From Polycladomyces abyssicola (lineage in GTDB: Bacteria > Bacillota > Bacilli > Thermoactinomycetales > JIR-001): a DNA stretch of 64,000 bases. The DNA is taken from positions 2,902,001 to 2,966,000 of the forward strand of contig NZ_AP024601.1 in assembly GCF_018326425.1 (NCBI RefSeq), in the 5' to 3' direction. Position numbers and translations under genes: made by a program. Shown here in pieces: positions 4,514 to 52,285 of the stretch. A model generated the notes under the pieces. It saw nothing but the letters and a program-made list of their open reading frames with translations, had not been told where the DNA came from and did not search any database. Within the stretch, counting starts at the first letter, position 1, and every line of letters begins with the position of its first letter.

Positions 4514-4718
4514 AGCTGTGGCCGTTAGGATAGCGGGAGCGGCGACGGTTGCCGCACCCCGGTTGCTTGCTCACAATGTTCCGTGGAAACGGGTAATCTC
4601 TCTTATTGCATCGACTGCCTTGTGTCGTATCGCCACTGACCAAAAAAGAGTAAGGAAGGATTTCCCGCTCTTTGCGTGGAAATGGTTGTAGAGGAGGAGT
4701 CCGAGGACGGGTCGCGTT

Positions 4719-4746
4719 CCTTTCTTCGTCACACGGCGAAGAAAGG
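4719..4746 (+). promoter_or_regulatory. Hairpin masking the ribosome site of the 4758 peptide gene
   Basis: CCTTTCTTCG (4719-4728) pairs perfectly with CGAAGAAAGG (4737-4746) across an 8-nt loop. The 3' arm includes the first bases of the AAAGGAGG ribosome site (4742-4749) of the next gene. Such stems keep type I toxin mRNAs poorly translated until processed or refolded. That role is inferred from the pairing. Confidence 0.55.
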
Positions 4747-4757
4747 AGGTGATGCTT

Positions 4758-4862
4758 GTGACGGAAACGATTGATTTGCTATCGCTGGTGTTGCAAGTTG
4801 TTGCAACTACTGCGTTGGTGATACAAGTTGTCGTTCACGTCGTGACATCACGAAAAAAGTGA
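4758..4862 (+). CDS. Small hydrophobic peptide, holin-like/type I toxin candidate (34 residues)
   Basis: The peptide reads TETIDLLSLVLQVVATTALV, then IQVVVHVV and a basic tail TSRKK: one membrane helix with a charged C-terminus. This is the layout of the short 'putative holin-like toxins' and type I toxins of Bacillota. GTG at 4758 is preferred because AAAGGAGG lies 8 nt upstream; ATG at 4752 would be too close. The stop codon lies inside the left arm of a long terminator hairpin, also common in this class. No antitoxin RNA can be proved from sequence alone; an antisense RNA overlapping the hairpin is possible. Family assignment rests on architecture, not on an alignment. Confidence 0.55.
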   Translation: MTETIDLLSLVLQVVATTALVIQVVVHVVTSRKK

Positions 4863-4901
4863 CCCGTGGGCCTGCCAACCTGAGGGTCACTTTTTCGTGA
4901 T
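4847..4901. terminator. Long bidirectional terminator overlapping the small peptide stop
   Basis: ATCACGAAAAAAGTGACCC (4847-4865) pairs with GGGTCACTTTTTCGTGAT (4884-4901) with a single unpaired A. The A-rich and T-rich arms make it work as an intrinsic terminator on either strand, so it could also end a convergent antisense transcript. Confidence 0.75.
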
Positions 4902-5035
4902 CAATGGGTTGTAAGAACGCGGCCCTACCGAGGGCTCCTTCTCACTTATTTATATTATACGCATATGTTGGCAAAAAAATCAAACTGATTTGTGATAGGA
5001 AACAGGCTGGGGAAAGTCCGTCGTTTGGTGTAGCC

Positions 5036-52143: not shown

Positions 52144-52159
52144 GAAGCCCGTACCAATC

Positions 52160-52260
52160 GAATATTCGAGGGGAGCTGGATAATGGCCGGCTGAGAAAGT
52201 GTACCGATACACTGACCCTAGGAACCTGATCCGGGTAATTCCGGCGTAGGGAAAGATCGA
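52160..52260 (+). promoter_or_regulatory. TPP riboswitch (THI element)
   Basis: The conserved blocks are all present in order: GGGGAGCTGG, GGCTGAGAAAGTG, a variable stem (GTGTACCGATACAC), ACCCTAGGAACCTGATC, CGGGTAATTCCGGCG and TAGGGA. It binds thiamine pyrophosphate and controls the downstream transporter. Confidence 0.95.
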
Positions 52261-52285
52261 AAATCGTTCGCTTTCTGTGCATATC

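Follow-up and report, generated by a model that had tools for sequence, protein, structure and literature searches.

A candidate type I toxin-antitoxin cassette with a sigma-H-like toxin promoter in Polycladomyces abyssicola and its relatives

The chromosomal stretch of Polycladomyces abyssicola analysed here (the window; 64,000 nucleotides of contig NZ_AP024601.1, from a complete genome of 3.2 Mb) carries a cassette of about 350 bp, at 4655-4983, which we take, with a probability of roughly 0.83, to be a chromosomal type I toxin-antitoxin (TA) cassette whose family is missing from the searched libraries. This reading is drawn from the convergent predicted promoters, a bidirectional terminator shared by both RNAs, a hairpin over the Shine-Dalgarno (SD) sequence, and a conserved single-helix peptide of 25-34 residues with a basic tail. 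A preliminary description of this DNA had proposed a type I toxin gene from the peptide, the hidden SD and the terminator. The cassette is larger than what was then described, and the antisense promoter, the sigma-H-like promoter, the paralogues in the same genome and the homologues elsewhere in the order (Thermoactinomycetales) had all been missed. The type I proposal itself gains support, as a conserved sigma-A-like promoter predicted on the opposite strand adds the missing piece. Features expected of type I systems in general are found at the sequence level: a small hydrophobic peptide, predicted to form a single helix with a charged end, an antisense promoter and terminator kept in relatives, and a toxin SD locked in the predicted mRNA structure, a feature which is common, not universal.

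The predicted sense (toxin) promoter, of sigma-H type, is located at 4655-4682 on the plus strand, with the −35 element GAAGGATTT (4655-4663), a 12-bp spacer and the −10 element GTGGAAA (4676-4682). A toxin mRNA of about 210 nt (4690-4898), with its start site inferred from this promoter, would include a 5′ head (4691-4719), an SD-sequestering hairpin of 14 bp (4717-4748), the SD stretch AGAAAGGAGGTGAT (4740-4753), and the open reading frame (ORF) for the 34-residue peptide MTETIDLLSLVLQVVATTALVIQVVVHVVTSRKK, which runs from GTG at 4758 to the stop TGA at 4860-4862. The intrinsic terminator common to both RNAs is located at 4852-4898 (both strands), with stem arms at 4859-4865 and 4884-4890. 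On the minus strand, the predicted antisense promoter of sigma-A type (4954-4983; −35 TTGATT at 4978-4983, 18-bp spacer, −10 TATAAT at 4954-4959) faces the sense promoter and points back toward the shared terminator. The predicted antisense RNA of about 100 nt (4849-4947, start site also inferred) begins with a 5′ head (4915-4943), recognized by folding and by comparison with the head of the mRNA, and this head carries a GCCCU...AGGGC hairpin. The mRNA region 4690-4900 folds at −95.5 kcal/mol (z score −5.8), a value equalled by none of 200 shuffles, and the antisense region at −43.2 kcal/mol (z score −4.7).

The perfect 10-bp stem pointed out in the preliminary description (4719-4728/4737-4746) is indeed present, and folding lengthens it to 14 bp including G-U pairs (4717-4730/4735-4748). 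The hairpin thus formed has a predicted energy of −20.6 kcal/mol (z score −5.0), and none of 200 shuffles was that stable. Locking of the SD by this stem was also borne out by folding: over 18 family members the SD averaged 12% unpaired, while 37 control genes taken from the window gave 47% (Mann-Whitney p = 9e-7). Some of the 18 members have damaged ORFs and two pairs among them are nearly identical, so that independence among them is incomplete. In the leader, changes on both sides were observed for 7 of 21 predicted pairs. All letters of the SD stretch can pair with the end of 16S rRNA; it should therefore be very strong and would need hiding.

The terminator stem is flanked by six A on the left and five T on the right, and can therefore act on both strands. 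The stop codon lies inside this stem, in line with the earlier claim that it falls within a long terminator working on both strands. The Lys-Lys-stop tail of the peptide is encoded by the A-tract of the terminator and the first bases of its stem, so that the end of the peptide and the antisense terminator constrain each other. Across 19 copies, 91.4% of the stem cells were paired and 13 cells were changed on both sides, neither value being reached in any of 500 shuffles; sliding the stem partner lowered the pairing to 53% or less.

As for the peptide, structure prediction gave a single helix over residues 2-33 (mean predicted local distance difference test score 91.9, predicted template modelling score 0.50), in agreement with the single-helix peptide with basic tail described before. 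An alternative start, ATG at 4752, would give 36 residues and stands only 2 nt behind the SD core. In the alignment of 12 intact members (25-34 residues), the N-terminal start is of the E-T-I-x-L-L/F type in 10, the two from genomes G008 and G009 begin with A-T-I-M-L-V, and Lys-Lys is found at or adjoining the C-terminal end in all 12. For six pairs among four sequences, third codon positions accounted for 56 of 105 differences, and the ratio of nonsynonymous to synonymous substitution rates was 0.21-0.67. Judged from these comparisons, the peptide is under selection at the protein level.

The peptide family is absent from the libraries searched (Pfam, NCBIfam and PHROGs), in line with the earlier remark that no family name could be given. 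For 10 diverse members, Pfam and NCBIfam returned at E values up to 10 only weak unrelated matches, none near the cut-off, and the best match in PHROGs, which has no cut-offs, was at E 0.079; membership in a curated protein family was rejected, all these matches being weak. Hol_Tox (PF16935) had no match in the own genome at E up to 1 and none for the 10 peptides at E up to 10. A control with Hol_Tox matched 8 of 14 named genomes, two of them above the cut-off, indicating that matches of so short a profile are weak.

The antisense promoter was scored for 25 copies, with the distance of the −10 box taken from an anchor at the tail codons, which in the window copy starts some 11 nt ahead of the stop. 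In 500 background segments the 99% point was 12.5 and the maximum 13.0. The score 13.0 was observed for 13 of the 25 copies, 12 of them with the −10 box at 103-120 nt from the tail codons and the remaining one, in genome G016, at 146 nt. The exact form TTGATT-18-TATAAT was found in eight of the 25, at a −10 distance of 104-120 nt from the A-tract's tail codons. This nearly constant spacing is taken as support for the antisense promoter. The predicted sense and antisense RNAs overlap only in the terminator, over about 50 nt, and a covariance model of the antisense RNA matches opposite the toxin gene in relatives.

By its sequence, the toxin promoter looks like one of sigma-H type. The pattern RNAGGAWWW-N12-RNNGAAW has one exact match on both strands of the window, upstream of the peptide gene; 0.17 matches are expected by chance in 64 kb, and at least one was found in 16 of 100 shuffles. 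The form with an 11-bp spacer had no match in the window. With the sigma-H consensus taken as printed in PMC8510167, the window copy fits 12 of the 13 specified positions of RNAGGAWWW-N11/12-RNNGAAT, and copy L003 fits all 13. When copies were scored on this scale (maximum 13) over the 150 nt upstream of the start, at least 11 was reached by 11 of 19 copies versus 9.5% of 3000 background segments. Copy L108 (G016), for which the match lies only 69-41 nt upstream of the start, was left uncounted, and a sigma-H-like promoter is assigned to ten copies: the window copy, L002, L011, L003, L018, L020, L019, L067, L060 and L075. At the genome level, AGGATTT-N11/12-RNNGAAW occurs at 21 sites versus one in the reversed control. 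Of the 21, two belong to copies of the cassette (the window copy and L003), one is the spoVG promoter, and others precede dnaG and divIVA. The next ORF was annotated for 10 of the 20 loci fetched around such sites; the remaining next ORFs of these ten are a subtilase, a solute-binding protein, COX2, a nitronate monooxygenase, an NYN-domain protein, a DUF2935 protein and one without family. As a separate observation, one locus with a sigma-H-like match (L156; G000:C1:169039-169063, minus) has no ORF of at least 60 residues starting within 500 nt downstream, and may mark a gene for a non-coding RNA or for a further small peptide.

Copies of the cassette were sought in 42 genomes of the order, three of which belong to the family of the window's host. 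DNA search brought up two more copies within the window's genome, and a sister species has several. For the covariance searches, the toxin leader was modelled on its own, and the antisense RNA was modelled together with its promoter; run separately, each of the two models matched nine of the 42 genomes at E up to 0.1; the leader match in G030 is weak and reads as chance. Both models matched face to face at one place in G000, G001, G002, G006, G012 and G013, of which G013 corresponds by sequence match to Melghirimyces profundicolus and G012 to Marinithermofilum abyssi. With the addition of single-model matches read as members and the peptide-profile matches in G016, the element or its remains are present in 11 of the 42 genomes, in three families (the six above together with G007, G008, G009, G014 and G016). 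The peptide is thus not missing from relatives with its DNA conserved as something else; homologues exist in other families of the order.

In a wider search, a profile of 12 peptides matched 124 of 398 genomes of the class, which include most of the order, when E was loosely limited to 0.5. The matches with E below 0.001 all fall inside the order, one of them being a spacer of clustered regularly interspaced short palindromic repeats (CRISPR) in G017, and the best match outside was at E 0.004; three weak matches outside the order were examined and not judged related. Among 398 genomes of the phylum, two matches were below 0.001, the own genome and one chance match (E 2.7e-4), which lies out of frame in what appears by eye to be guaA. 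No convincing copy was found outside the order in these class and phylum samples. Of eight matches in genome contigs, three were members and five were judged unrelated; L139, L140 and L144, among the latter, resemble the family start over about 10 residues and are without the tail.

The two promoters tend to be kept or lost together. The comparison included ten intact ORFs from genomes with the sigma-H-like promoter in at least one copy, leaving out the near-identical orthologue of the window copy in G002 and the members in G008/G009 and G016. Both promoters were retained in seven (the window copy, L002, L011, L018, L020, L067 and L060) and both were lost in three (L012, L065 and L066), and none of the ten carried the toxin promoter alone. 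By our own arithmetic so clean a split has a chance of 1 in 120, with thresholds (sigma-H score of at least 11 with an 11-12-bp spacer; antisense score 13) which were set after the data had been seen. For instance, L012 is without the antisense promoter and the −35 element of the toxin promoter, and its counterpart L002 in the window's genome, next to the same hydroxyethylthiazole kinase gene, is complete. Five copies (L003, L074, L075, L068 and L088) have an ORF that is altered, broken or missing and still carry the antisense promoter. Such a pattern would result from selection against expression of an unprotected toxin, and the joint loss of promoters hints that the peptide may be toxic in the absence of the antisense RNA. 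Copy L019 was rejected as an intact toxin and left uncounted, its A-tract being one base shorter so that the frame leaves the family tail; L059 has a different C-terminus and is without the terminator.

Two rearranged copies were observed in addition. In G007 the toxin half (L061) and the antisense half (L026) are parted by about 330 bases of other DNA (G007:C4:243992-244571), possibly a small inserted element. In G016 two copies are located about 3.7 kb apart (L131; G016:C1:1526500-1532500), one with its terminator and basic tail replaced; by eye, the sense promoter at this place resembles a sigma-A promoter of the extended −10 kind.

The predicted toxin mRNA and antisense RNA are alike in the same sense over their first 30-50 nt. 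The heads 4691-4719 (plus) and 4915-4943 (minus) are identical at 22 of 29 positions, and none of 1000 shuffles was as similar. This likeness was significant (p ≤ 0.015) in nine of 11 copies, the other two giving p = 0.07 and 0.70. The letters common to both heads vary between locus lineages, and change together. The head pair of L067 scores 40, while any other pairing with either of its heads scores 22 or less; in the closest group, the highest score does not always go to the cognate pair. Gene conversion between inverted repeats, or a common binding partner of both RNAs, could explain the likeness. Complementarity between the heads was weaker than the same-sense likeness, with p below 0.05 in four of 11 copies (L002, L003, L018 and L020), and is attributed to the partly palindromic nature of the heads. 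Pairing of the heads as an analogue of the DRa/DRb repeats was rejected, as the duplex energy fell within the lowest 5% of shuffles at only two of nine loci (L060 and L083). We know of no type I precedent for same-sense 5′ heads shared by the two RNAs.

The copies adjoin unrelated genes, including those for hydroxyethylthiazole kinase, lipoyl synthase, an EamA transporter and others. In G017, belonging to another family of the order, the sole profile match is a 36-nt CRISPR spacer (L134; G017:C1:2026300-2028900, at 1288-1323 minus) within an array having 29 exact repeat copies in the stretch taken. The spacer reads ATG plus 11 more codons of the peptide-family start, and is identical to L060 at 29 of 36 letters with the differences mostly in third positions. 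Its profile E value, 6.9e-4 for one genome with 398 searched, would by itself not exclude chance; real relatedness is favoured by its position in a spacer, by its frame and by the bias toward third positions. The spacer suggests that the peptide gene travels on mobile DNA of the order. Among known phages and plasmids no match to the peptide was found, and the spacer gave short matches only, at E 0.4 or worse among the matches listed. One pattern found nothing in viral contigs; with a looser pattern eight viral contigs were obtained, in which the frames at the match read as unrelated.

If the cassette is of type I, the following course may be envisaged. In growing cells, sigma-A polymerase would make the short antisense RNA. 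Its terminator hairpin, a full complement of the mRNA's own hairpin for about 50 nt, would start duplex formation. The mRNA might then be cut by RNase III or kept untranslated; duplex-led decay would be expected, with the SD hairpin delaying translation. At stationary phase or at entry into sporulation, when sigma-H is active, the toxin mRNA would outrun the antisense RNA, and the peptide would insert into the membrane and halt or kill the cell. Dependence of the toxin promoter on sigma-H, if real, would tie the toxin to the onset of sporulation. The larger combination, namely a sporulation-gated TA system with toxin mRNA by sigma-H and antisense RNA by sigma-A, same-sense heads on both RNAs, and spread on CRISPR-targeted mobile DNA, is put forward tentatively and at less than even odds. 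Were it true, the choice to sporulate would tip the balance between toxin and antisense RNA, and the co-changing heads would need a shared partner or repeated gene conversion.

Several observations weigh against the type I reading or limit it. The antisense score of 13.0 is also the maximum of the background. Copy L019 carries the sigma-H-like promoter without the antisense promoter, its ORF being altered in the tail, and the three intact ORFs without either promoter could be fossils, or else the peptide could have another use; for L065 and L066 the antisense side scored 11.0 and 11.5, below threshold and with other spacings. Members in G008/G009 and G016 have no counted sigma-H-like promoter, and the antisense-side scores in G008/G009 (10.5 and 10.0) are at background level; the sigma-H-like and antisense promoters thus belong to only part of the family. 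In the terminator, pairs with both-sided change number three of 11, a value reached by 252 of 500 shuffles, the pair types are fewer than in shuffles, and the both-sided cells come mostly from two pairs (six each), so that the changes may reflect few events. None of 20 scanned neighbour proteins (13 with any Pfam match) fits a phage or transposase family, and mobility rests therefore on the distribution of copies and one CRISPR spacer. Finally, the overlap of about 50 nt, confined to the terminator, is shorter than the 100-140 bp described for the 3′-overlapping systems of Bacillus subtilis in PMC6562991.

Among other explanations, an unlikely one, though the strongest of these, is that the small membrane peptide serves the physiology of the cell, for instance in sporulation or as a subunit regulator, being made under sigma-H, tuned by the antisense RNA and no toxin at all. 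The peptide is conserved, its toxicity is a prediction, and developmental genes are transcribed from sigma-H promoters, with Clostridioides difficile examples in PMC7438776. Such a role fits poorly with the patchy multi-copy distribution, the decaying paralogues, the differing genome neighbours and the joint loss of both promoters; moreover, the locked SD and shared terminator represent the layout of known type I toxins (PMC7472228). That the element is a non-coding repeat resembling a miniature inverted-repeat transposable element, with inverted repeats around the terminator and an accidental ORF, is very improbable: the heads do form an inverted repeat, several copies occur per genome and degenerate ones are common, but the third-codon bias, the Lys-Lys near the stop in all 12 aligned peptides, and the differing promoters on the two sides, outside the inverted repeat, speak for a gene. 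Least probable of all is that the element makes no product and only serves its neighbour genes as a terminator or other cis-regulatory structure; a terminator is needed between the two ORFs that flank the cassette, but the copies stand beside unrelated genes and carry their own promoters.

Comparison with known systems places the candidate TA cassette closest in layout to the type I system par(pAD1)/Fst of Enterococcus and relatives, with which it shares convergent promoters, a bidirectional terminator as the site of RNA contact, an SD-sequestering 5′ stem-loop, a 5′ upstream helix, a GUG start and a small membrane-spanning peptide (PMC7472228). For the par(pAD1) RNAs, contact begins at the terminator loops (PMC7472228). 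The differences are that no Fst/Ldr profile matched the 10 members when Pfam and NCBIfam were searched with an E limit of 10, the presence of Fst models in these libraries being unchecked; that no PXXXG motif was seen by eye in the ten members; that complementary repeats like DRa/DRb were not observed in the comparisons of duplex energy and heads given above, a separate scan of the start-codon region lying outside them; and that the heads here are similar in the same sense and the toxin promoter is apparently of sigma-H type.

The 3′-overlapping type I systems of B. subtilis, txpA/RatA, bsrG/SR4 and bsrE/SR5, likewise encode short toxic peptides, and the SD of bsrG mRNA is sequestered (PMC6562991); their antitoxins promote decay of the toxin mRNA (PMC6562991). 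Besides the shorter overlap, the present cassette differs in that no Hol_Tox match was found in the window's genome. The Hol_Tox family includes some of the txpA/bsrG/bsrE-type peptides. The type I systems of C. difficile (PMC6563280) resemble the cassette in their short membrane peptides with charged C-terminal residues, the toxin promoter for an alternative sigma factor and a CRISPR link. There, however, the promoters are of sigma-B type and the genes are located near CRISPR arrays, whereas here the promoter is sigma-H-like and the link is a spacer in a different genome that apparently matches the gene. The spoIISABC system of B. subtilis is a TA system with promoters induced in sporulation, but it is treated as type II with a protein antitoxin (PMC6562991). 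The toxin of spoIISABC is unrelated to the peptide of 34 residues described here.

In the literature searched, no type I toxin was reported for Thermoactinomyces and no TA system for Polycladomyces; for TA systems in Thermoactinomycetaceae only a seawater survey appeared, judged by its listing. A query for type I TA with sigma-H and sporulation gave only work on microcystin, unrelated by its listing, and a query with SigH led, among the papers listed, to PMC7438776, whose excerpt mentions no sigma-H promoter on a type I toxin. The order to which the host belongs is spore-forming. The present analysis adds a peptide family and an antisense RNA unmatched in Pfam, NCBIfam, PHROGs and Rfam as searched. 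It also connects a candidate type I toxin with a promoter of the sporulation type, by which the idea of a toxin acting at the sporulation decision becomes directly testable. The many natural copies, complete and broken, provide a series for asking which parts must be lost jointly.

With respect to its surroundings, the cassette is flanked by an ORF for a small membrane protein and a long ORF which reads as a transporter of the resistance-nodulation-division type, a label given by reading. The cassette RNAs were unmatched in Rfam at its own thresholds, the sole match in the whole window being a thiamine pyrophosphate riboswitch at 52159-52269, above the gathering score.
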